A stretch of 64,000 nucleotides of DNA. Source: Hexactinellida sp. DTS-2022 (lineage: Eukaryota; Porifera; Hexactinellida). Both the position numbers and the translations under genes were made by a program. Shown piece by piece: positions 3,301-63,696 of this stretch. Positions within the stretch are counted from its first letter, which is position 1, and every line of letters begins with the position of its first letter. The notes beneath the pieces were generated by a model, which did not search any database, was not told the origin of the DNA, and was given only the letters and a program-made list of their open reading frames with translations. The stretch is from assembly GCA_028753945.1 (NCBI GenBank), contig JAPNXP010000007.1:310001-374000 (forward strand), read 5' to 3'.

Positions 3301-6300
3301 AATAATCATGAATAGGAATATTAGATACCAAACAAATACATATTTTCTATTTATGTTCTAAATATCGTGACTCCGCTTAATTAGGTCACTTTATTTTGAC
3401 CTGTATTGTTTGAATAAGCGTCGGGTCAATAATATGGCATTCGTTTGGTAAAAGTAAACACATTAGTTGATCACTGTAATTACATTTATTCTAGCAATTA
3501 CAGTATAGTAGAACCTCGTTAATACGAACACCAACGGAAGGTTAAAATTTGTTCGCTTTATCTGGAGTTCGTATTAACCGGAGTAATACCCATTGAATAG
3601 CCATTGTAGGGACCTGATTTTGTGCAACTGTTTGTTCGTTTTATCCGGAAATTCGTATTAACCGTGTTCGTACTATAACGAGGTGAGGTAGTTCCTGAAA
3701 ATAACCCAATTAACCAGAGTTACTGTATTTATAACACCTTTTAATACCAATTCGGAAAAGGGGTACATATTTGACGGTCCCCTGGTGTCCCTACGAATGA
3801 GATTAAAAACAAACAGAACAAACAAACTTACCTTTTCGATTACTCCTTTAACAGACTTAGTATGTGATTTCCTAGCCTGTGCATCATTAGGCAGATTAGT
3901 ATAAATACTAGCATTCTTAACAAACTCAATACATTCACTCCCTAGTTTAGCCACAGATCTCTTTATACGAAGTGAGACTTCTTCTGTTTCGGCTAATTTT
4001 ATCGCTTTTCGGGAACTGTCACTCATACTAGTGTAGGTAGAAGAAAGCTCTGTTACGATTCGTATCATCTCAGATTGATCACCTCCAGTCTTGCCTACAT
4101 AGAAAGAAATAACTTATGTGTAGACCGTCTATTTCTAGACCAGGTTTTCTTAAATATACATTAGTATTACCCAGTTAAAATTACGGTGAACAAAATACAG
4201 TAGAACCTCGTTAGTGGACACAGTTAATACAATACAAACACTATTTTAGTCCCCTTCAAAGCCTTTTCAATACAAATGATATTTGTTAATATGAATTCCG
4301 GATAAGGCGAATACTATTTCAGTCCCCTTCAAAGCCTTTTCAATACAAATGACTCCGGTTAATATACGAATTCCGGATAAGGAGTACACATTTGACGGTC
4401 CCTTGGTGTTCCTACTAACGAGGTTCTACTGTAGTTGGAAAATAGATAAGTTAAACAAACCTAAGCTTTCTTGTGCCAGCTTAGCAACCGCTTTGGCACC
4501 TTGGAATATCTCATCTTGACACCTAATGAAATCATCATCTTCCAATTCCCCATGTATCCCTACATCCAGCTTGTCAACTGCTTTATAAATATTATCAGTG
4601 GCATTATAATAAGGGTCAGATGGCTTTTGTACTGTCAGTATCAGTTCCTTGATAGCTTGTTGCATCGAGTCACCAGATTGATCGATTTCAGAATGCGCTC
4701 CTTTAACAGATTTCTTGCCCCCAACCTCTTTGGCTTCTGTTATTAGTTGTAAGGCGGCTTCCGTTAGTGTTTTAGATTGTTCTAGAATAGCCTGTTGGTC
4801 CGCTGAAGAACTCACACGGGATGCCATGCCGATTGCAAAGTTAGCGAAACTCGTAAAATGGCTTGTCTAGAGGGTGTAATAGTCATGAAATTATGGCTCT
4901 AGTAAATTAGTGCTTAAAATATTAAAATTGGCGTTAAAATACTAAAATTTGGTGCTCAAAATATAAAATTTGGGGTTTACAAAAAATAGCCGCTTAAATC
5001 TTATAAATACTTACTAAATACATAAAATGAGGTTAAAAATTTCAAGTTTGGCGCTAAAATAATACAAATTGGCGTTAAAATATTTAAATTGGCGCTCAAA
5101 ACATTAAATTGGCGCTTACAATATAAAAATTGCCACAGAAAATATTAAAATTGGCGCTTAATATTGTTATTACCTACTAAAAAATATTAATTTGAGGTTG
5201 AAAGCATTACATTTGGCGCTCACATACTAACTGCTAGCCAATTAACTGGCTAGCTCGCTTACCAGATTGGTGACTGAGTGTCCCAGGTTTTCGGTCTCGC
5301 CTTTTGCCGCCACCGCGACCGGATCGATCAGCTGTGAGATCTCCTCGATAGTGTTCAACAGCTGATCTCTGAAACCGGCCAATGAGTGCTCCTGCTTTGG
5401 AGGCAGATTCTGCTGCATTCCTTCCAGAGTCGCTCTGTCGATATCTCCAATAGCTCTGTTTAGAACACCTAGGTAAACAACAGGTAAACAACAGGTAAAC
5501 AACAGGTAAACAACAAGTAAACAACAGGTAAACAACAGGTAAACAACAGGTAAACAACAAGTAAATAGACAGGTAAACAAACATATAAACACACGTGTAA
5601 ACAAAGTGACAAACAGGTTAACAAACAAGTAAAACAAATAAACAAAGAAGTAGACAACTTTTGAATAAGTGAAGTGTAATTACAATGATTTAGACAATTT
5701 CAGAAGCAATAGAATCCACCTAAATATTATAACCCAGATTTTCAAAAAATTGGGGATAAATTTGACCCACAAAAAAACAAAATGTACCGAAGTGCTTATT
5801 TGGGGAAATACGGTATAAACAGTACTTACCCGCTGCTTTCTGACATTCCTTTTGCCCAGGAGAGTTGCTACGAATGGCATGAACTAGACTCCTAATAGAA
5901 TCGGTTAACGATTTGGAGTGCTGAGCTAACAATTGCCACAAATTCTGATCATCAGGATGCAATACTAACGTCTTAGAGGTGCTAATTAGACTGTTTGAGT
6001 TCGATACCATGTTCTTACCAGACATAAGTATTGGGGTCATTGCATCATGAGCCTATAGGATGGAAATTGGAACTATAGAGCCAGTTGGTTCCAATTTGTT
6101 TAGCATTTAAAGGAACTGACAATCTTTTGTTCATATTAAGTAACTGTTGTAATCGGAACAAAATGCACTAATATGCACACCCAAAGTTTTAGATTTGTAC
6201 GAATGCTTAATTAACCACAAGCATTAGAAATGCCGTTATAACGAACTATAGTAGACTCTGTTAATAGGACACGGATAAGGGAATATCGGTTAAGGAGTAC

Positions 6301-28710: not shown

Positions 28711-31423
28711 CTAAAATTTGAGCCAATCTTTCAAATACAAACAACTATTAGGGGAAATATTGCCAATATCTTGACACCTATCAATTAATTGGCACATCAC
28801 ACAAGGGGAAAATGATAATCCAGCAGGAATTTGTTTCGTCAAATTAATCTCTTTAGCTCGATATTTATACACTTTTATAACACTCCCATTTTCATCTGGT
28901 AACTCCATAAAATCTGAATCTAATTTCCCTTCATCGTATAAGGCTTGTAATACCAAATCAAGTTTAACCTTACCAACAGTAAAGGTCAATGTAATGTGCT
29001 CTGTTTTCATAGCTAAAATATCTTCACTTGAATAAAACCTTTTCCTACTTGATTCCCTTTCCCTTAATAGAAGTTTGTGAATGTGTTGAAAAAACTGATC
29101 AAGTTCATCGACTGACAAAAGTCTTTCTCTGTTAATAAGTGAAGCATCTGGTTCGTAAACTGACAGAAGAAATACTTTAGATTTGACTCCTGTCAAATCT
29201 GGAAGTTTAACCGTTTGGACTAATCCTTGCGACTCTAAATGCTTGAGTATTTTCGTAACCTATAAATAGAAAAGGTATTAGTTCCTCTATAGAGACACCT
29301 ATTATTGTGTCTGTACATAGAGATTCTAACAGGAATCAGTTCCTCTATAGAGACACCTATTATTGTGTCTGTACATAGAGATTATAACAGGAATCAGTTC
29401 CTCTATAGAGACACCTATTATTGTGTCTGTACATAGAGATTCTAAGGAGAATCAGTTCCTCTATAGAGACACCTATTATTGTGTCTGTACATAGAGATTC
29501 TAACAGGAATCAGTTCCTCTATAGAGACACTTATTATTGTGTCTGTACATAGAGATTCTAAAGAGAATCAGTTCCTCTATAGAGACACCTATTATTGTGT
29601 CTGTACATAGAGATTCTAACAAGAATCAGTTCCTCTATAGAGACACCTATTATTGTGTCTGTACATAGAGATTCTAACAAGAATCAGTTCCTCTATAGAG
29701 ACACCTATTATTGTGTCTGTACATAGAGATTATAACAGGAATCAGTTCCTCTATAGAGACACCTATTATTGTGTCTGTACATAGAGATTCTAACAGGAAT
29801 CAGTTCCTCTATAGAGACACCTATTATTGTGTCTGTACATAGAGATTCTAACAGGAATCAGTTCCTCTATAGAGACACCTATTATTGTGTCTGTACATAG
29901 AGATTCTAACAGGAATCAGTTCCTCTATAGAGACACCTATTATTGTGTCTGTACATAGAGATTCTAACAAGAATCAGTTCCTCTATAGAGACACCTATTA
30001 TTGTGTCTGTACATAGAGATTCTAACAGGAATCAGTTCCTCTATAGAGACACCTATTATTGTGTCTGTACATAGAGATTCTAACAAGAATCAGTTCCTCT
30101 ATAGAGACACCTATTATTGTGTCTGTACATAGAGATTCTAACAGGAATCAGTTCCTCTATAGAGACACCTATTATTGTGTCTGTACATAGAGATTCTAAC
30201 AGGAATCAGTTCCTCTATAGAGACACCTATTATTGTGTCTGTACATAGAGATTCTAACAGGAATCAGTTCCTCTATAGAGACACCTATTATTGTGTCTGT
30301 ACATAGAGATTCTAACAGGAATCAGTTCCTCTATAGAGACACCTATTATTGTGTCTGTACATAGAGATTCTAACAGGAATCAGTTCCTCTATAGAGACAC
30401 TTATTATTGTGTCTATACATAGAGATTCTAACAGGAATCAGTTCCTCTATAGAGACACATATTATTGTGTCTGTACATAGAGATTCTAACAGGAATCAGT
30501 TCCTCTATAGAGACACCTATTATTGTGTCTCTACATAGAGATCATAACAGGAATCAGTTCCCTATAGAGACACCTAATTACCTGGACTTGGGGTAAACTT
30601 GTCTTTTTCCTGACATCAGTACTAATTAATCCTTTCCCCTTTATAGATTCTAGAGTTCTGTAAACTAACAATTGTTCTTCGTTTAATGAACGTAGCTCTG
30701 AACTCAATTCTGAGTTTAGTTCTATCAATTCTTTCAATCTAAAATATAAATACAGTAGAACCTCGTTAGTAGGAACACGGGTAATACGAAATTCCGGTTA
30801 TTACGAACACAATTTCAGTCCCCTTCAAAGCCTTTTAAATATAGGAATTTAGGCATTTTGACGGATTTTGACGGGCCCCTGGCCTGGTGTTCTTACTAAC
30901 ATTAAATTCCCGTTATATAATGAAATACCCGCTTATAACGAAGTTATAAATATATTTCCAAGAAGGATAAAGTACAATAGAACCTCGTTTTTGTTCGCTT
31001 TGATTTTGTGAAACTGTTTGTTCGTCTTATCCGGAAATTCGTGTAAACCGTGTTCGTACTAACGAGGTTCTACTGACTACTGTAGTTGATTTTATTTCGT
31101 TTATAATGAAGGAAATGAAAAGTTTCCTCTAAATTTACGCGCCTGAATGACAGACAACATTATATATTTATTTACCTGTAAACAAGTGTTGATCCTTGTT
31201 TACATAACTCAAGTTTACCACTTGCTAGCAGTTTATTTATAACTTTCATTCTAATATTTGGTGACAATTCAGGATGAGCCTCCTTTATATGTCGCTCTGT
31301 AATTCCTTTCACATTTTCGTGGCATAATTCCAAAACCCGTTTTTCTAGCATAGAAAGTATTTCTGGATCATCTGACTTTTCAGAGTTTATTTCGTTCTTG
31401 ATTGCTACTTGGACTATTGCCAT
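28711..31423 (-). CDS. POLR3F: RNA polymerase III subunit RPC6
   Basis: Three exons, 31423-31176, 30738-30582 and 29259-28711, with consistent phases and GT-AG borders, give 317 residues; human POLR3F has about 316. The protein is the RPC39/RPC6 subunit of the Pol III RPC3-RPC6-RPC7 subcomplex, which opens promoters and contacts TFIIIB. Exons 1 and 2 encode the tandem winged helices (VLELCHENVKGITERHIKEA; LISTDVRKKTSLPQVQ). Exon 3 starts VTKILKHLESQGLVQTVK and ends with the cysteine cluster CVMC...RC...NSCLYL, the conserved Fe-S-type site, then LKDWLKF. Intron 1 contains MITE fragments; intron 2 (1.3 kb) is essentially one 58-bp minisatellite array. Start is the ATG at 31423. Confidence 0.95.
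29270..30570 (-). repeat. 58-bp minisatellite in POLR3F intron 2, about 22 copies
   Basis: Head-to-tail 58-bp unit containing CTCTATAGAG and the stem AGACAC/GTGTCT around CTATTATT. Copies differ by only one to three bases. The array fills the intron almost wall to wall. Read on the transcribed strand each unit carries TCTCTATAG, which resembles the acceptors used throughout this window. Confidence 0.95.
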
Positions 31424-38135: not shown

Positions 38136-38143
38136 ATAATATT
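38136..38143 (+). repeat. Candidate target-site duplication, left copy
   Basis: ATAATATT, identical to 44019-44026 on the other side of the KDZ element. An eight-base duplication is the length I recall for Zisupton-type elements, but the sequence is AT-rich and could match by chance. Confidence 0.5.
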
Positions 38144-38147
38144 CATA

Positions 38148-38202
38148 TATTTAAAAATGAGTAGCGCATGCGCTGCATTTGAGTAGCGCATGCGCTGCAT
38201 TT
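38148..38202 (+). repeat. KDZ left terminal inverted repeat
   Basis: Starts TATTTAAAAATGAGTAGCG and holds two copies of a 22-bp subterminal repeat; a third, degenerate copy follows near 38203. Exact reverse complement of 43960-44014. Confidence 0.88.
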
Positions 38203-38420
38203 CAAGTGACGCATGCGTATCTCGCGATTGTCAGCTGATTGATCATTTGTATAGTAAAAACAAGATAGGCTTGCAATTTTCACCCTATATTAATAGCACA
38301 TTCCTGATCTCTAGGACTGGAAAAAGTAAGACGTTTAAATTGAACTTAATTAACATATATTCCAGAATGTTTCGTTTGTTCTTTTCCTTTCTATACCCTT
38401 GATTAGAATAGTTATATCAT

Positions 38421-40414
38421 ATGCCTAAGATACCTAAGATGACAAAGGCCAATGCTCTAATTGTATTGACGAATACTTTGAAACAGTTTCGTTCTGTTAC
38501 TGGAGAATATGCAGGAGCTGTATTTTCATGGCATGGCAGGCTTGGTTCTTTGGGTCCCGAAAATTTTCAAAAGTTCATTAAGGAGAACAACGATGAGGTT
38601 TCGCGAACTTTGCTGACAAGCAGGATAGTTGAATTAGCTAGTTCAAAACCTGCCCGTGACCATGAACTTCTCAAGCTCTTAGATGGAAATATCTATAGCT
38701 ACAATGTCCAGACACTGAGAAAGCTTGTTTCAGCAATCACGAAAGAGTCAACTGGTAAGTCAAAGGTTGATTACAGATTTTAAGGGTATTTGATTTGACA
38801 GAATCTTGCATTTAGGGAAAGATATGTTTTTTTGGAATGATCCCGCTCTTAAACCGCTTTTTTGGCCCAAACGTGTCCCCTTCGAAAACATAAAAAGGGC
38901 AACTAAGGTTAATTTGCTTAAGATATTGCAGTCCTATAAGGAATTTACTATGAAAGAGCAAGTATCAATTAGCCCCCGATCTCGATCTCCTAAATCTCCA
39001 AGCTCTTCTGAAGTATCGCGAAATACCGACTACCGAGACCGTTCTCCTCTTGCTACCACTACTAAAACAACAGAATTATTACACCAAGAATCTGATGTTG
39101 ATACGAGTAGTGATTCCTTCTTACAAATTTTTCGGCAACCCGAATTCACTTCAGATAAACTTATTCCAGTTCCTCAATCACCTACTCCTAAATCCAGTCT
39201 GGTCTCACTACTCAACATCAAGCCATTGGATCCTATTCATATATTTACACCTTCTATTTCTTCAAATGTAAGACGCTTATCTATCTCAGAATTGTCAAAT
39301 CGGAATACTTTTCTAACAGACACAACCATTAACGCATTTTGTGTGAGTTGAATAAATACTAGCCCTTCGCCTCGGTTAAAAAACCAGCATACATTTTGAA
39401 ATTTCATTAATTTGTTCACCTATTTTTGTAAACAACAACAATAAATATTCATAATAGAATTTATTAATGCAAAATTCGAAATCAGCATACTTGTTTACAT
39501 AGTACATATTCTAACATTTGCAAGCTAGTCCTATCTCAATTATAAGTGTTGTTTCTAGTCCCCTATCAGTTTAATACTACCCGGGTAAACATATCGACAT
39601 ACCTACCTTGGCTACCCACAACAATCAAGTTTAATAATACTATAGATTTAGATACATTCGGTATTTACGGTTATCTTAATAATTATTATTCACAACCATA
39701 CTCTTGTAGACCTTACTGAAGAAAAACTTGCCGCATATACAGGGACTTCAAGACACTATTCTTTCTCAAGTGAGTTCTTGTTTTTGGGTATTAGAGAAAT
39801 AATTAAATTTAGAATTAATTAATGTTTAGAATCGGCAATTCGTCAAAGGACCTCGTCCTAGTATTCAGATACATCATGATGGTGCACTTCACTGGGTCTG
39901 TTCCAGTATTGATGCAGATGGGCACGTAACCCTTTATGATTCGCTAAATATGGGAAGAACCACTGAAGAATTATCTGTTCAGTTAGCCCTTTTGTATGGG
40001 AATGATGCTGAGCTGAAGTTAACTATTGCTTCTATTCAGCAGCAAAGAGGCGGAGCGGATTGCGGTTTATTTGCAGCTGCAGTCTGCCTAACAATAGCAA
40101 CTGGAGGCGACCCTACCCAAGTTTGCTGGAAGCAAGCAAGAATGAGATCTCACCTCTCCGATTGTCTCGACAGCGAAATTTTAACACCCTTTCCTAAGAT
40201 AGAAAGCATAGTATTGCGATCTAGAATCACAACTAATGTAAGGACAGTTTTAAAGATAAAGTTATGGTGTTTATGTCATCTACCCGTCTACGCGTTTCGA
40301 AACATGGTTGAATGCCCCAAATGTTTAAAATGGTTCCACAAACCCTGTGTAGGGCTTGAAGATACTGACAAAGACATCCCTCACTTCTTTTGTAGTCTAT
40401 GTAGTGTCGTATAA
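38421..40414 (+). CDS. Ulp1-like cysteine protease fused to a PHD finger (KDZ element)
   Basis: Four exons, 38421-38754, 38816-39342, 39710-39769 and 39830-40414, join in frame to 501 residues. The N-terminal ~110 residues are helical and unrecognised (KANALIVLTNTLKQF). A Ser/Pro-rich linker follows (PRSRSPKSPSSSE). The third exon supplies LLKKNLPHIQGLQDTILSQ, and the fourth the papain-like core seen in transposon Ulp1 domains: catalytic His in DGALHWVCSS, Asp in TLYDSL, Gln in SIQQQRGG and Cys in ADCGLF. The last ~50 residues are a PHD-type zinc finger (WCLCHLP, VECPKCLKWFHKPC, FFCSLC; Cys4-His-Cys3). The protein probably cleaves SUMO- or ubiquitin-like modifiers and reads chromatin during transposition; that is inference. 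All catalytic residues are present. Confidence 0.85.
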
Positions 40415-40536
40415 TACAATTTCGCATAATCAGTTATTGCGAATTTATTACGATATATATACACGTATAGTTAGAAATTACTGATACAATATGGCTACTA
40501 ATAAAGCTACAATGTTCTAACATGAAGTTCAAATTA

Positions 40537-43500
40537 TTATTTATTCTCGTTAATCTTAGATATATTTTCTTGATTCAAACAAGCTAGAAAGTATCTTGCA
40601 GTAAAGAATACATTATCGATACGCATGTATGCGATCTGTGTTGATATCCTTCTTAGTGAAGAAAATAATTGTTCGCAAATTTGGGAGTTTATTCTTCTCA
40701 TCTCGTCCGTATGAATGGACCTCATAGAATAGGAGGGATTGCACTTGTGGTTTGTAGAATGGAACCGATCGATGAGAAAAGTTGTCTTGCGAAATAATTT
40801 GGGATCTCTAAAATATTAAAATACTAATTACTATCTAATATTTCCGACGACTTTATTTTAAATAATATCAAATGAGTTACATGTACTTACCTTTTCATAC
40901 ATGTTCTATGTAAGTTGCAAGCATTATCGTAGATTATCACTTTAGGCTGTACTTTGAATATTGTCAATAACAAATTATAAATTCCAATTGTAGATTCGTG
41001 TTGTCTGAGAATTTGGAAACCATAGCAAATCCTGTGTTTACAAGCGATTGCTATTAGTCCGGGGGAAAACCTTTTGTGCGTAGGAAATTGTTTGAGACAC
41101 TTTTCAGCTGAATCTTCTTCCCGATTTTCGTATACTGGAATCCTGTAGAAGATAGATGTCAAAAATAGAATGTGTAAAATTTGGCTATATTTGGGGATAA
41201 TCCAGTTTAATTTAAAACAAACTCAAGCTAACTCTCAGAATCTACAACTCAATATTTTTAAAACGAATCTACTCACCTATGCTATCTCAGGGTGAATAGT
41301 TCCCAAAATACTTGTGTATTTTGTAATTTTCAATACGTATATAAAACTCTAAATATTATCACTACGAAATTAACAAATTTGAACTTACTTATAGCTTGTT
41401 GTAAAAGTTGGGAAATAGTTGAAATAGTTGTTGCTTTCTGGAAAAAATTCAACTAATTTTCTTGATGTTTTGCTAAATAGACTTTCAATTTGTGCCAAGA
41501 TGCTTTGCAATAGCGTGGACACTGTCGGGTGTAAAGTGATGAGACCTGTTTTATCTTTTGTAGGTTGGATAGAATTGAATAATATATCCAACGTATACAT
41601 TTTTTGGTAAATTGAAATTAAGGAATCTTCACTAACTGATTTTCCATGGGCAATGAGAGCTATGTCTTTTCGCTCATTCGGTCCCAGTATAGAGAATTGG
41701 AATACTCCGGAAATAGGATCTGTATGACAGAGGAGTTCTATCGCTTTCTTAACATTTCTATGATCTCCACTTATAGTCACTAAATTTTCAGTCCTACTGG
41801 AACTAAATAAAATATAGTTGGCCATTTGTTGGTTAAGAGAATTCAATAGGTCATTGAAAATATCTTTTGCCAAGCCTTCAGAACAATATTTAAGGAGCTG
41901 TTTTCTAATAGAAATGTCCGGGATAAATACACGATCGGAAAAAGGGATCATGGGGTAGAGCTGATCCTGGTCGAAATTTGCAGCCACTTCTGGAACCGCT
42001 TTCATTGTTCCCATCGCTATGCCATCTAAAATTATCACTTCTGGTTGATCTTTACACTTGGGACATGTGTAGTGCTCGGTATAATCTATGTCAACCATTC
42101 TCAGATATGCATTCCATGCTTGATAGAATATGTGATAATGGAATGTATTAGTTCTACCCATTCTGATGAGCTTCCTGTTCTTTGCACTAAATAATAAAAA
42201 TCAAATAGATCGTGTTTAACTCAAGTACATAAGTGAATTCACTAAACATACCTCAAGTAGCCATACAGAGTATTTCGTGACCTAGTCATCAACTCACTGT
42301 AGTCGTATAGTAAGCTGTAATGAACGAAGTATCTGTTGTTGATGTTTAATAGTAAACTGCTATGTCCTTCGAATACTGCCAGGCAATTGCAAGGGCCATT
42401 GCATATTGAACTGTAAACTAGATAAATAATCACATTATTCACTAATAAATCATTGAGTTACGAAGTACAAAGTTGTTTATTCTAAAGTACATTTTCTGAT
42501 GCGAAATTAGCTCTGAAAAAATCCCTCCTAAATAGATGTAGCACACGAAACTTTCCTATATAAACGGGTATAACTAATTACCTTATTATTATAAATATAT
42601 GTACCTTTGTGTTCTTTTAATTCATTGACATCATTTTCCATATAGATAATTATTCCGACCTTTTCCAATTTTAGTTGCTCTTCTTCATTGAATTTGTAAC
42701 CATAGTCACAATAATTCTTTTCAGGATAGATATTTACAGGCAAGTTGATGCCATGTCGAAGTTGGTTGTTGTAAATTGATATTTGGTTCTCATCTAGATT
42801 GAATGGTATTGGAATGGTTGATGTAGTTTTGTATTCAATTTTATTCTGGTTTTTGATTGATGTATCAGATCCAATTTTATCGACAATAATATGGAGTCTG
42901 AAGTGCTGCTTACATTTTGAAGGACAAGAGCTACAAAACCAACGGTCATTATTCAATTGGAAATTGTGAAAAGTACCATCTGCCAACAAGAAATATCTTA
43001 GCATTAGGAAGATAATAAATTATGTTTTCCAGGTTGTTTCCTTCACAAACTTGCAAGGAATCATTTCTTGAACACAGTTCAAATGCTTGATAGTGAAGAC
43101 AAGTTCCACTAGAACAATGGGTGCATATATGGGCGTTTTTTTCAATTAAGATTCTCCTCTTGTTTAGTACAACGGTTCCTATAAATGAAGAATTGTTGTT
43201 ATTATTATTAAGGTCTAATGACTTGAGAGAGAAATTTTGCATCAAAAATTGAAATGCCATTTTATTTACCTTGTTGTGAGTGACCAAAATCAGCAATTAC
43301 CACATATTTACTATCCTCTAACTGATATACACGAGACTTTAATATCAACAGTCTGACATATTGATCAATTGTAGGTATTTCATTAATTTCTAATTCTGAG
43401 AAGCACTGACCTATGGGAAAACGTCATATAAAAATAACAAATATCCTTGAATTGGTAAATTATTACCTGAGCCTGACCAAGTTGATATATCTGATTCTAA

Positions 43501-43641
43501 CAGTGTAAATTGTTCACCTTCTGATAGACATACTTTGTCGATGTCAAATGTCAGGAAGCTGATATCTTCTTTATCAGATATTTTTCGTTTTTTTGGGAAC
43601 ATATTAACCGACTCAGTTGAAGAAGTTAGTTTTTCTGCCAT
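40537..43641 (-). CDS. KDZ-family transposase
   Basis: Eight exons, 43641-43467, 43410-43270, 43178-43047, 42979-42605, 42417-42252, 42186-41389, 41142-40891 and 40807-40537, give 769 residues with matching phases and no internal stop. N-terminal cysteine clusters (ICTHCSSGTCLHYQAFELC; WFCSSCPSKCKQHF) and a second zinc motif (HYTCPKCKDQPEVIILDG) are typical of KDZ transposases. The catalytic core shows KVIIYDNACNLHRTCMKR, TTFLIDRFHSTNHKCNPSYS and NSQICEQLFSSLRRI, which carry the conserved Asp, Asp and Glu candidates. The middle exons encode CNCLAVFEGHSSLLLNINNR and YDYSELMTRSRNTLYGYL. The gene is convergent with the Ulp1-PHD gene, leaving only about 120 bp between stop codons. The second intron (43269-43179) is just 91 bp. 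Confidence 0.9.
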
Positions 43642-43916
43642 TTCCTCAGATAATGATATAACTAATGGTATATCTCTTTAATTTAGAGCATATATGCGTA
43701 AATTAACTAACTACTTGCATTCCAAAGGTAACTTATCAAAATGTGGTGAGCAAGCTTCACTAAATTACATTCCAATCAACGTATTGGTTAACTATGTTTA
43801 ATTATTAGGAAATACACTTAGATATAATATGGCTTATCTCATAGCATTACTATGTAATAATAGTATTACTATGTAGCTACTATGTAGTTATAGCAGCGCA
43901 TGGGATATTATTGAAA

Positions 43917-44014
43917 TGCAGCGCATGCGCCACTTTAAATGCAGCGCATGCGCCACTTTAAATGCAGCGCATGCGCTACTCAAATGCAGCGCATGCGCTA
44001 CTCATTTTTAAATA
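43917..44014 (-). repeat. KDZ right terminal and subterminal repeats
   Basis: Four 22-bp repeats at 43917, 43939, 43961 and 43983, each with CAGCGCATGCGC, plus a degenerate fifth near 43892. The outer 55 bp (43960-44014) mirror the left end exactly. Spacing is constant, as expected for transposase binding sites. Confidence 0.88.
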
Positions 44015-44018
44015 GCTC

Positions 44019-44026
44019 ATAATATT
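44019..44026 (+). repeat. Candidate target-site duplication, right copy
   Basis: ATAATATT, matching 38136-38143. Confidence 0.5.
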
Positions 44027-44070
44027 AGTCAACTACAGTATAGTAAACTTGCAATTTAATTCAGACTGAA

Positions 44071-44116
44071 ACACCTGCAACTTGGTTCTACATTAAGTGC
44101 AGGTGTTTTAACCTGA
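44071..44116. repeat. Short inverted repeat beside the KDZ element
   Basis: AACACCTGCA and TGCAGGTGTT separated by about 20 bases form a perfect 10-bp stem. It sits between the transposon and the hairpin array; no role can be assigned. Confidence 0.6.
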
Positions 44117-44309
44117 AGTGTATGTTATGTACTTACAGGGCTGAACACCTGTTACAGACATGAAAAGTATATATACGCCGGAATAAATAATTATTTTACT
44201 CTTCAACTTTATATCATGAAGTTATTCACTTGAAATCTCGCTCTTTTCACCTCATTCCATTAGCGTTCAGAGGGTACCAACTTGGGTATTCTCGCGTCCA
44301 TTGGCATTG

Positions 44310-44436
44310 GCTAGTGCTGTTCCTCTCTTCTCAGCTGATTTGGATCCATAAAGTGTAGGGAGCAACTTGCGGAGGTTGCGAACTACGCTTTATGGTGAAA
44401 CTTCAGTTGGGGGGAGGGGGGTCCGTCAGTGCTAGC
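44310..44436 (+). ncRNA. Rod-hairpin repeat, copy A (divergent)
   Basis: Outer stem GCUAGUGCUG (44310-44319) pairs with CAGUGCUAGC (44427-44436). Next stem CAGCUGA (44332-44338) with UCAGUUG (44403-44409). Then CCAUAAAGUGUAG (44346-44358) with CUACGCUUUAUGG (44383-44395). The apex is GCAACUU-GCGG-AGGUUGC (44362-44379). Sequence differs widely from copies B, D and E, but the order of stems and the CUU-GCGG-AGG apex are the same. Strand is assumed; the rod would also fold from the other strand apart from G-U pairs. Confidence 0.6.
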
Positions 44437-44533
44437 GGTTAGGAATTAGAAGGTCAGTGCTTTTCGAGAGTATACTAACTTGAGTATATCTCGAGATATA
44501 CTAACTTGGGTATATCTCACTTGTCATTCCATT

Positions 44534-44664
44534 GGGCTGGTGTTGTCCCCTGCTTTTTCGCTGGCTTTTGAACCTCAATAAGTGGCAATCGGCTTGCGGA
44601 GGCTGAGCGTTGCTTGTTGGGGGGAGATTCCAGTGATGAGTAGGGGGTCCGCCGGCACCGGCCC
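44534..44664 (+). ncRNA. Rod-hairpin repeat, copy B
   Basis: Whole unit folds as one rod: GGGCUGGUG with CACCGGCCC, UCCCCUGCU with AGUAGGGGG, CGCUGG (44559-44564) with CCAGUG (44630-44635), CCUCAAUAA with UUGUUGGGG, and apex UCGGCUU-GCGG-AGGCUGA. It is followed by four tandem copies of CGGCCCTTCGTTTG or a shortened form. No Sm site, box A/B promoter or known RNA family is recognised. Confidence 0.62.
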
Positions 44665-44876
44665 TTCGTTTGTACCGGCCCTTCGTTTGCAGGCCCTTCG
44701 TTTGTACCGGCCCTTCGTTTGAATCTTGAACGACAACTAGCAGTAAACCACTAACCTATTACATGGACACATCAGATCAGATCAAATTGTAAGCTAGCTT
44801 GTAATTTAATTCCCGTTGTATATATTTTTACGTTTCCTCCAATAGTTATCTTGAAGTCTCTCTCTCTCTCACGAAT

Positions 44877-45027
44877 GGAATGCTGTGATTAGTGCAGTCC
44901 CTTGCTACTCAGCTGTCTTCTGCGCTCAGCGACTTGAGATCGGCCTTGGGGCGGGTCGTGACCGACGATTTGGGTGCGGATTTCAGTTGCGAGTGAGGGT
45001 GCTCCCTGTGCCATGATCAGTAGCTCC
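44877..45027 (+). ncRNA. Rod-hairpin repeat, copy C (most divergent)
   Basis: The outer stem is long but bulged (GGA, GCUGU and GAUUA on the 5' side against GAUC, AGUAGC and UCC on the 3' side). CCCUUGCU pairs with AGUGAGGG and CAGCUG with CAGUUG, at the same relative positions as in A and B. The apical region has changed beyond simple alignment. It is preceded by a ~100-bp segment (from about 44770) that also precedes copy D. Confidence 0.5.
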
Positions 45028-45187
45028 ATTCGTATACTCAGATCAGATCAAACTCAGATACTCAGATCAGATCAAATTGTAAGCTAGCTTGTAATTTAAT
45101 TTCCGTTGTATATATTTTTACGGCTCCCTCCAATAGTTATCTTGACGTCTCTCACCAGATCTCACCAGATCCACTTGTGATTCCATT

Positions 45188-45318
45188 GGGCTGGTGTAGT
45201 CCCCTGCTTTTTCGCTGGCTTTTGAACCTCAATGAGTAACAATCGGCTTGCGGAGGCCGAGCGTTGCTTGTTGGGGGGAGATTCCAGTGATGAGTAGGGG
45301 GTCCGCCTACACCGGCCC
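45188..45318 (+). ncRNA. Rod-hairpin repeat, copy D
   Basis: Near-identical to B, but almost every difference keeps pairing: GGGCUGGUGUAG pairs with CUACACCGGCCC, where B has U-G pairs; GAGUAAC replaces AAGUGGC opposite the unchanged GUUGCUU; the apex AGGCCGA turns a G-U of B into G-C. The 5' flank (45060-45187) repeats that of copy C. Confidence 0.62.
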
Positions 45319-45336
45319 TTCGTTTGTCATTCCATC

Positions 45337-45466
45337 GGGCTGGTGTTGTCCCCTGCTTTTTCAGTGGTGTTTGAACCTCAATAAGTGGCAATCGGCTTGC
45401 GGAGGCTGAGCGTTGCTTGTTGGGGGGATTTCCAGTGCGGAGTAGGGGGTCCGCCGGCACCGGCCC
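45337..45466 (+). ncRNA. Rod-hairpin repeat, copy E
   Basis: Begins 18 bp after copy D and closely matches B, with the same outer stem and apex. One mid-stem position (CAGUGG against CCAGUG) has a mismatch, so this copy may be relaxing. Confidence 0.6.
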
Positions 45467-46532
45467 TTGGTTTGCAACTTGAACACTTACTGAAGCTCAA
45501 CTACCTTATGGTGAGTTATTTTGTAACATTTCAATTGTTTGTTGGATCTATTTTTACCCTGTCCTCTCTAGTTGAATCGCTTCCCACCCCAGCCCAACTC
45601 GAAACTCAGACCAAACTACTTATCAAACTCAGACCAAACTCAGATCAAACTCAGACCAAACTACTCAACAGACCAAACTCAGAAGTTCAAACTAATCAAA
45701 CTTCTCAGCTGGGGTGGAAAGGTACAGAGTGTGCCCCAAGTGCATTCACAGCTCAGCTCTAGCTGCAACCCTGAGGGCCCCCAGCCAACTTATATTTGTA
45801 TTAAATTAATATTACTTTCTGTATTGTAATTATTACTTTCTGTATTGTAATTATTATAACATTAAACAGTATACAAATCTCAATCACTAATATACTAACG
45901 GGTTTAATTATAGTTATAGATCTTATAATTTGCGCAATTAATAATTTGAATTTAATAAACGCAATTAATAATATGAATATAATAAACGCAATTAATAATT
46001 CGCAATTAATAATTTGAACTAATTTGAAATTTTAATATAAGATACTATCAGTTATGTCGGTCGTTATTACTGTAATTAATATAATGTGTTAGTTGTAAAT
46101 GAATTTGCGTCTGTTGTTTGCTGTATATTATACCATTACGTATTGCTTAATCCTGTACGTTTACAACTAATCCGTTCGAGGCTCTTTTAATCTTCAGCAA
46201 TTTCTTGTTAGCCATTTATTATTTTATGTTTGTTTTTGTCTCAGTATTCTCTTATACTAAGGAAGATCACTTGATTCACTTCATGTGATTAGGATTTCTT
46301 TTCAAAATAAAATATTTTACTATATTACATGTAACATTGTTGTATGTACTTATATTACATGTTGTATGTACTTTTTAATATATGATTTAGTTACAGATTA
46401 AAAGAATTCTTATAACTTATTAATAGAGTCTTATACAACATAAGCTAACAAACCTAGTCTACAGTTATTTAAATAAATTGTTCATAGAATTAACAATTAG
46501 CTAACTACCAATAATACACATTTGCAATTGAA
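45467..46532. other. Intergenic, array to sphingosine kinase
   Basis: 45590-45720 has an irregular repeat of AAACTCAGACC-like words. 45800-46530 is AT-rich, with short repeats such as CGCAATTAATAAT near 45930-46010. No gene or clear transposon end was seen. Confidence 0.5.
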
Positions 46533-61843: not shown

Positions 61844-63696
61844 ATGGCTCAAAATACAGAAAGGAAATTTCTCAACCCAGAAGCAACCGAATTCCTGCCT
61901 CAGAACCTTCCCATAACAAACCCCCCCACATTCCTACCTGCCCCTCCCGTTCTACAGGATATAGTAACGCAGCTAAACAGAACTATTGAGTCACCACAAC
62001 TGCAACAACTGATTGAGACCTACAAGGGAGTTCTGACTTTCATAGCTTCCAATCCGGAGACTTTCGATCAGCAAGCAGAGTGTCTCAAAAGTGAAATATT
62101 TATGGTAAGGCATTTGTTCTCGAATGTTCTATAGAAAGGTGTAATATTTATGGTAAGGAATACCGGGATATAGGGCAAAATGAAATTTGATGGTGGTTAA
62201 TTAAAATAATTGTCTGAGACTTATTAGTTAGCTCCATAGCAAGCATTTGTTCTCGAATGTTCTATAGAAAAGACTCCGCTTAATAGAGCCACCGGTTTTT
62301 TTCACAGGATTTATAGGACTGAATTACAAATTTGGCAATTAAAATATTTTCGGTTAATAGATTTCTCTGCTTAATCGGGTCAAAGCAACCTGGTTCCGAG
62401 GTGACTCTATTAAGCGGTATTGACTATATTAGTGTTGTTTTACGGCATCAGAAGTTTGTTAAGCAGACCTGACTATATATTTATTTCCTACATTTAGCTG
62501 CCCGAAGAAGAGGTAATAACAAAGCCTATAAAAGAGGCTTTGGTTCGGATGAACATAGAATTAGCAATTGTGGAGCCAGAGTATAGAAGTCAGTCTGCAA
62601 GAGTTTGTCTCTGTATAGACTCATTCTTTGAGGAGTATTATGCTATAGAGGGATACCAGGAATATCAGGAGTTAAGTATGGACTATCTTAAGACAAGGTA
62701 AATCCCGAAATTATTTAATTATTAATTTTTTTTAGGTTTTTGTAAATTGTCACACATTGGTTAACCTTTTTAACTTTTGAACTGTCATTGGAAGCCTTTT
62801 TAACTTTTGAACTGTCATTTGTAACTGTTTTTAATCTTAGTTATAATCTCTATTTCAGACACAATAATAGGTGTCTCTATAGAGGAACTGATTCTTGTTA
62901 TAATCTCTATTTCAGACACAATAATAGGTGTCTCTATAGAGGAACTGATTCTTGTTATAATCTCTATTTCAGACACAATAATAGGTGTCTCTATAGAGGA
63001 ACTGATTCTTGTTAGAATCTCTATGTACAGACACAATAATAGGTGTCTCTATAGAGGAACTGATTCCTGTTAGAATCTCTATTTCAGACACAATAATAGG
63101 TGTCTCTATAGAGGAACTGATTCTTGTTAGAATCTCTATGTACAGACACAATAATAGGTGTCTCTATAGAGGAACTGATTCCTGTTAGAATCTCTATGTA
63201 CTGACACAATAATAGGTGTCTCTATAGAGGAACTGATTCCTGTTAGAATCTCTATGTACAGACACAATAATAGGTGTCTCTATAGAGGAACTGATTCCTG
63301 TTAGAATCTCTATGTACTGACACAATAATAGGTGTCTCTATAGAGGAACTGATTCCTGTTAGAATCTCTATGTACAGACACAATAATAGGTGTCTCTATA
63401 GAGGAACTGATTCTTGTTAGAATCTCTATGTACAGACACAATAATAGGTGCCTCTATAGAGGAACTGATTCCTGTTAGAATCTCTATGTATAGACACAAT
63501 ATTAGGTGTCTCTATAGAGGAACTGAGGGTGTTATAATCTATTTATAGATACTTATCATTCGGTGACAAAATAGACGCCAATCCACCAGAATTACTAGAA
63601 GAATTAGTGGGCTATGCTGCTACAATGGCTGACTATTTAACTCGACTCCAGAATCAAGATAAATCTGTGGAACAACTAGGGATAGCAATGATCGAG
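61844..63696 (+). CDS. PAM2-motif protein, 3' end outside the window
   Basis: Three exons, 61844-62104, 62498-62697 and 63549-63696, join in frame to 203 residues; the last ends in phase 0 before GTTAAT. Near the N-terminus FLNPEATEFLPQNLP fits the PAM2 motif (LNxxAxEFxP), which binds the MLLE domain of poly(A)-binding protein. A Pro-rich stretch follows, then helices (QLNRTIESPQLQQLIETYKG; IKEALVRMNIELAIVEPEYR; LLEELVGYAATMADYLTRLQ) suggesting an alpha-helical repeat fold such as MIF4G/HEAT; this is a guess from helix pattern. A PAIP1-like translation factor is possible, but I do not recognise the family. Intron 2 contains a 58-bp minisatellite shared with POLR3F; the donor edge of exon 1 is duplicated in intron 1. 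Confidence 0.7.
62267..62430. mobile_element. GACTCCGCTTAATAGAG MITE, copy 3
   Basis: Inverted relative to 6816-7003, in intron 1 of the PAM2 gene. Ends decayed. Confidence 0.8.
62850..63530 (+). repeat. 58-bp minisatellite in PAM2-gene intron 2, about 11-12 copies
   Basis: Same unit as at 29270-30570, in the opposite orientation on the + strand but the same orientation relative to its host gene. The first copies have CTCTATTTCAG, a strong acceptor-like string, in place of CTCTATGTACAG. Confidence 0.95.

Follow-up and report, generated by a model that had tools for sequence, protein, structure and literature searches.

A subtelomeric family of tandem rod-like hairpins in a sponge genome: a candidate structured non-coding RNA

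A 64,000-nucleotide window of sponge DNA (contig C16:310001-374000) contains an array of five long rod-like hairpins, units A to E of ∼131 nt, that belongs to a family with ten detected loci, all of them close to contig ends. Compensatory changes between two types of unit point to selection on the RNA fold. We favour, with a probability of roughly 0.55, a multicopy subtelomeric gene for a structured non-coding RNA of a demosponge, in which the array is the gene body. The family is apparently non-coding, its hairpins are RNA-like, and it looks like an undescribed structured RNA. The features of the window are collected in Table 1.

Table 1. Features in and around the hairpin array (window positions). 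MFE, minimum free energy; z and the number of shuffles folding as well refer to 200 dinucleotide shuffles.
Feature	Position	Strand	Remarks
KDZ-type DNA transposon	38144..44018		Secondary insertion; not part of the RNA gene
Promoter-like leader	44120..44299	+	TATATATACGCC ∼30 nt upstream of a conserved start-like TCTTCAACT; promoter role suggested by sequence only
Mini-hairpin before unit A	44270..44293	+	GAGGGTACC-AACTTG-GGTATTCTC; read by eye
Rod hairpin unit A	44310..44436	+	MFE -73.8 kcal/mol, z -9.0, 0/200; 15 copies detected genome-wide
Mini-hairpin before unit B	44493-44518	+	GAGATATACT-AACTTG-GGTATATCTC; same loop as that before A, other stem; by eye and script
Rod hairpin unit B	44534..44664	+	MFE -80.4 kcal/mol, z -7.6, 0/200; B/D/E type, 26 copies detected
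Spacer element	44775..44870 (before C); second copy about 45062-45153 (before D)	+	TATA-like stretch; direct repeats
Rod hairpin unit C, diverged	44880..45023	+	MFE -55.2 kcal/mol, z -1.3 alone, 24/200; loop GGGGC, bulge GCTCC; 4 copies; joint alignment
Rod hairpin unit D (B type)	45188..45318	+	MFE -84.3 kcal/mol, z -9.5, 0/200
Rod hairpin unit E (B type)	45337..45466	+	MFE -73.1 kcal/mol, z -5.8, 0/200
3' module	45708..45900	+	Core bracketed by GCTGGGG...CCCCAGC, then AT-rich tail with ATTAAA

The first-pass annotation had placed five units at 44310-45466 and stated that each folds end to end. The units are there, with the stems and apices that it quoted. When they were folded with up to two extra bases and compared with dinucleotide shuffles, the end-to-end fold held for A, B, D and E (z -5.8 to -9.5) but not for C, whose fold alone is not significant. 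Units of the A, B/D/E and C types can be aligned with few gaps (MAFFT), and when 34 sequences were folded independently, those of the A and B types fell into a single register, which those of C shared in part. From the alignment and the shared register we conclude that units A to E are paralogues of one hairpin. A covariance model (R1) scored the four C copies at 75-82 bits, the C copies being themselves members of the model. In the A and B types the rod consists, from the base outward, of a 10-12-bp base, a 5-nt bulge on the 3' side, a stem region of ∼19 bp, an internal loop of ∼7x7, a stem of 13-14 bp, a small internal loop, a 7-bp apex and a GCGG loop.

Of the 43 distinct units found in the genome, 34 were aligned jointly; in this alignment 94.0% of cells pair, compared with 84.3% in shuffles and 41-51% when the partners were slid. 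With all 43 distinct units the figure is 94.4% (A 94.9%, B 97.4%, C 74.0%); that is, one structure fits the A and B types, and C less well. The same test on the 34 units gave a double change in 21 of 49 pairs (16.7 in shuffles), while the diversity of further pair types did not rise above shuffles (54 against 58.1), which counts against selection. Because the rows of such an alignment are related, the comparison between type consensuses is the cleaner test. Between A and B, whose paired positions differ by 41%, every one of the 24 changed pairs still pairs when counted from A, as do 24 of 25 counted from B, and 14 of the 24 have changed on both sides; shuffles kept a mean of 11.5 (p 5e-5), the independent events being few, namely three unit types in one genome. 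Compensation was not significant in the consensus tests of B against C (17/30, p 0.14) or A against C (17/28, p 0.09).

It is thus the comparison of A with B, not of B with D, that provides the strong evidence for the fold and drives its covariation support. The first-pass annotation had built its argument on the latter, citing substitutions that keep pairing and a U-G to A-U double change. This change is real, but it is the sole double change among the 53 pairs of the B/D/E type, and the two positions fail to pair in 7 of 24 sequences. Covariation within the type is weak, with 97.2% pairing against 96.8% in shuffles, and B-to-D variation alone is a poor carrier of the claim, which the A/B compensation nevertheless supports. 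The pairs also indicate the molecule concerned. G-U occupies 361 of 1639 cells and A-C 10 (459 and 12 of 2072 for all 43 distinct units), from which it follows that it is the plus-strand RNA that is kept and not a DNA palindrome. The minus strand folds less strongly, at -59 compared with -92 kcal/mol for the best 170-nt window.

DNA searches of the genome (112.4 Mb, 18 contigs) together with local scans gave at least 45 hairpin units at ten loci, the genome search being a lower bound. The loci on C16, C17 and C4 have five units apiece, that on C7 eight and that on C14 two (A-B), and those on C5, C13 and C6 and the two on C18 have four apiece (A-B, spacer, A-B). All ten are subtelomeric, with the nearest contig end about 22 to 390 kb away, and their orientation is consistent within two classes: arrays of class 1 (C16, C17, C4, C7, C14) read away from the contig end, and those of class 2 (C5, C13, C6, two on C18) towards it. 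The nine contig ends concerned have one common satellite in their terminal kilobase (36/36 pairs match), which left ends carry on one strand and right ends on the other; TTAGGG is absent from these terminal kilobases. We read them as probable chromosome ends that reach subtelomeric satellite. Segmental exchange would explain the clustering, so that the ten positions do not count as independent events. C14 also carries, at 4935.7-4937.0 kb (L012), a tandem array of about nine degenerate copies in which the mini-hairpin region survives but the rod arm is reduced to its first part.

Conservation of the hairpins against their spacers is mixed. Among the five class-2 loci, hairpins differ by 2.3-3.1% and spacers by 5.8-10.2% in nine of the ten comparisons, the tenth, between the two C18 loci (L016 and L017), being reversed (1.9% in hairpins, 0.5% in spacers). 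In class 1, compared for three of the five loci (C16, C17 and C4), substitutions are alike in hairpins and spacers (3.4 and 3.4%, 4.2 and 4.7%, 4.3 and 4.5%), whereas gap columns number 0-2 in hairpins and 162-176 in spacers. Gene conversion among units may blur the contrast.

The A and B consensuses share runs of four or more bases at only two places, the apical loop CTTGCGGAGG and the 3' basal bulge GTCCG. Loop GCGGA and bulge UCCGC are mutually complementary, and at least four contiguous standard pairs are possible in 45 of 45 units. All 26 B-type units allow five Watson–Crick pairs; the 15 A-type units allow four, with a mismatch (nine), a G-U (five) or a U-A (one) in addition; and the four C-type units, with loop GGGGC and bulge GCTCC, allow five including one G-U, with two double changes relative to B. 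Under letter shuffling the complementarity in B has p 0.015 for Watson–Crick pairs and 0.25 when G-U is allowed, and is not significant in A or C alone. Pairing of loop with bulge is therefore suggestive, not proven. The central internal loop is near the middle of the rod: by our count, about 23 positions separate this hinge from the bulge and about 26 from the loop, so that a rod folded on itself could bring the loop to the bulge; we regard such a fold-back and pairing between neighbouring rods as equally possible.

The motif pair TTGCGGAGG..GGGTCCG occurs at 27 places in the genome, all within known units by position (control 0). Near-identical forms in at least 119 stretches of a bacterial and archaeal collection and 116 of a viral one were taken as chance matches, the covariance model giving 0 matches in the 96 loci searched among the 160 listed.

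Rfam comparison of positions 43500-46500 gave seven matches with E values of up to 5, of which none attained the gathering threshold, and the microRNA matches among them, all below the gathering score, lie outside the rods; the earlier statement that no known family is recognizable thus stands for this interval. The 3'-module and transposon loci likewise had no match at threshold, the best being MIR5998 (E 4e-7 in L051, 45.9 of 180 bits).

The main rival to a structured RNA takes the rods for precursors of endo-siRNAs or of microRNAs of the long demosponge form, in effect a pri-miRNA cluster whose arms are the product; we judge this unlikely, if still a serious competitor. Demosponge pre-miRNAs can be long (a window of about 150 bp was used for Amphimedon) and plant-like (PMC6211395); precursors in sponges thus reach rod length, and length is compatible with a microRNA. 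The genome itself provides a comparison. The first 20 bases of miR-2019 (mature sequence from PMC4752309) have ten exact sites and thirteen with 1-2 mismatches genome-wide (control zero), from which we take the genome to be that of a demosponge; the exact miR-2016 20-mer is absent. The three miR-2019 loci examined (C1, C5, C16) all fold into tandem hairpins with a spacing of about 121 bases, and in these it is the mature arm that stays constant and the loop that varies. Like the rods, then, long-form precursors of the miR-2014 to miR-2021 group are long hairpins in tandem copies in the same genome, and the B-type rods, 96% alike per column with their arms included, would also suit a conserved product, although their loop is conserved within the type as well.

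Between A and B the pattern is nevertheless the reverse of that at the three miR-2019 loci: in the miR-2014 to miR-2021 group the loop is free to vary beside a constant arm, whereas in the rods loop and bulge are constant and the arms, despite their divergence, covary. A hairpin fold is found in A, B, D and E and is not significant in C, and an arm of ∼21-22 nt conserved more than the loop is not found between A and B. None of 23 of the 25 distinct mature sponge miRNAs in table 2 of PMC4752309 fits the array region, the closest, which falls on the end of unit B, having four mismatches over 19 positions and the others at least six. A genome search with unit B, itself a lower bound, returned only its 26 copies and no long antisense target. 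The stem of a canonical animal pri-miRNA is also shorter than that of a rod. The first-pass annotation had left pre-miRNA-like precursors and a new structured RNA side by side; the kept loop and bulge and the changed arms favour the second and disfavour the first.

The array is flanked by parts that accompany it elsewhere. The leader, with its TATA-like stretch, has matches at the ten array loci and at three hairpin-less places, C7:574 kb (L038 about 2430-2940), C18:636 kb (L039) and C18:774 kb (L040). In the C7 copy the 3' module comes after the leader with another insert in between, and the adjoining gene matches Pfam Siva. All five class-2 loci carry a second, inverted leader copy that points in the opposite direction; in four of these loci the 3' module comes next with no hairpins between. 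At the fifth, C18:6598 kb (L016 about 4200-4320), a G/C-rich stretch containing inverted repeats of the GGGGGCCCC type takes the place of the module opposite the array. The spacer element has related matches on C5, C13, C6 and C18. The 3' module is whole or partly deleted at the other array loci and is also present at hairpin-less places. Three folds of it were no better than shuffles (z -0.10, -0.29, +0.11), and its consensus fold is weak (-9.2 kcal/mol, 16 distinct copies).

The core of this module recurs in a dispersed transposon family (73 matches, with 40 of 95 candidates scored). A core of ∼40 nt, GGAAAGGTACAGAGTGTGTCCCAAGTGCACTCACAGC then CTGCAACCCTGAGGG, is common to window positions 45708-45786 and to L043 and L045-L050, and is flanked by different stems, GCTGGGG/CCCCAGC in the array genes and GGTTGG/CCAACC in the transposon. 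The transposon family has an OTU-like frame (PF02338, E 2.7e-9 in copy L052, weak in L051), and frames that appear integrase-like by eye have no Pfam match. This shared core, the multicopy nature of the array, the hairpin-less promoter-like copies on C7 and C18 and the degenerate tandem copies on C14 would all suit a non-autonomous mobile element or a satellite with no cellular role, its hairpins either assisting its own copying or being maintained by concerted evolution. We hold this to be rather improbable. All ten hairpin loci are subtelomeric and consistently oriented, and flanking sequence is common to C16, C17 and C4, which makes the spread look segmental; moreover, the covariance model detected none of the units in the 16 loci searched from the transposon family and the hairpin-less and 3'-module places.

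The KDZ transposon beside the array, to which the first-pass annotation had drawn attention, does adjoin it, but the adjacency is incidental. An 8-bp target duplication, ATAATATT, brackets the element on C16 (38136-38143 and 44019-44026). Homology between C16 and C17 (97.8%) runs up to window position 38143 and resumes at 44019, the overlap on C17 being the eight bases ATAATATT, and the flanking sequence on C4 is also continuous across the site, with a small gap and without the element. Since the C17 and C4 loci lack it, the transposon is a later insertion, and the possibility that the array is part of it was rejected, the array lying outside the target duplication. Of its profile matches, PF18758 KDZ (E 2.8e-4) and CxC4 (E 0.012) are below the curated cut-off and PHD (E 1.9e-5) is above it. 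Finally, selection or repair acting on the DNA, with the palindromes extruded as cruciforms or maintained by arm-to-arm gene conversion, is suggested by long inverted repeats near chromosome ends and by signs of concerted evolution, but is very hard to reconcile with the RNA-strand signature of frequent G-U, almost no A-C and a weaker minus-strand fold.

If the loci encode a structured RNA, a Pol II type promoter at about 44165-44200 would drive a plus-strand transcript of roughly 1.6-1.7 kb, comprising the leader, the rod hairpins (five here, two to eight elsewhere) and the 3' module. The loop (GCGGA) and bulge (UCCGC) would be its working parts, most likely through mutual pairing, either inside a single rod that hinges on its central internal loop or from one rod to the next, and these contacts might produce a compact scaffold displaying repeated protein sites. 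A bolder form of this proposal, that about ten subtelomeric genes represent a new class of animal structural RNA whose loop-bulge-locked rods are a scaffold acting at or on chromosome ends, is speculative, and we think it improbable as a whole.

Long non-coding RNAs built on repeated hairpins are known, such as Xist with its A-repeat and roX. Like them, the putative rod transcript would carry several hairpin copies; there is no known homology, the rods are far longer, and they occupy about ten subtelomeric loci rather than one. TERRA and Chironomus CriTER (PMC8508857) share with the rod loci a position near chromosome ends, but the rods are not telomere-repeat RNA and have their own promoter-like part, 3' module and architecture. 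Repetitive hairpin-forming elements have also been described in sponges (PMC2800124); those are mitochondrial, whereas the rods lie on megabase-sized contigs with nuclear genes. A limited literature search found no prior description of the family: the available text of a sponge lncRNA paper (PMC5890393) mentions neither hairpins nor repeats, and the literature that it turned up on tandem-repeat hairpins with kissing loop and bulge in non-coding RNA concerned flavivirus-type RNA only. It would be unusual for an early-branching animal to have an RNA-like family that is supported by covariation yet absent from Rfam. The present family, with its clear and testable loop-bulge hypothesis, has been detected only close to chromosome ends and, if our reading is correct, would represent an early instance among animals of an RNA built on repeated hairpins.

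Elsewhere in the window, 58-bp tandem repeats occupy positions 29273-30576 (22.5 copies) and 62840-63526 (11.9 copies), and their consensus units are mutual reverse complements.
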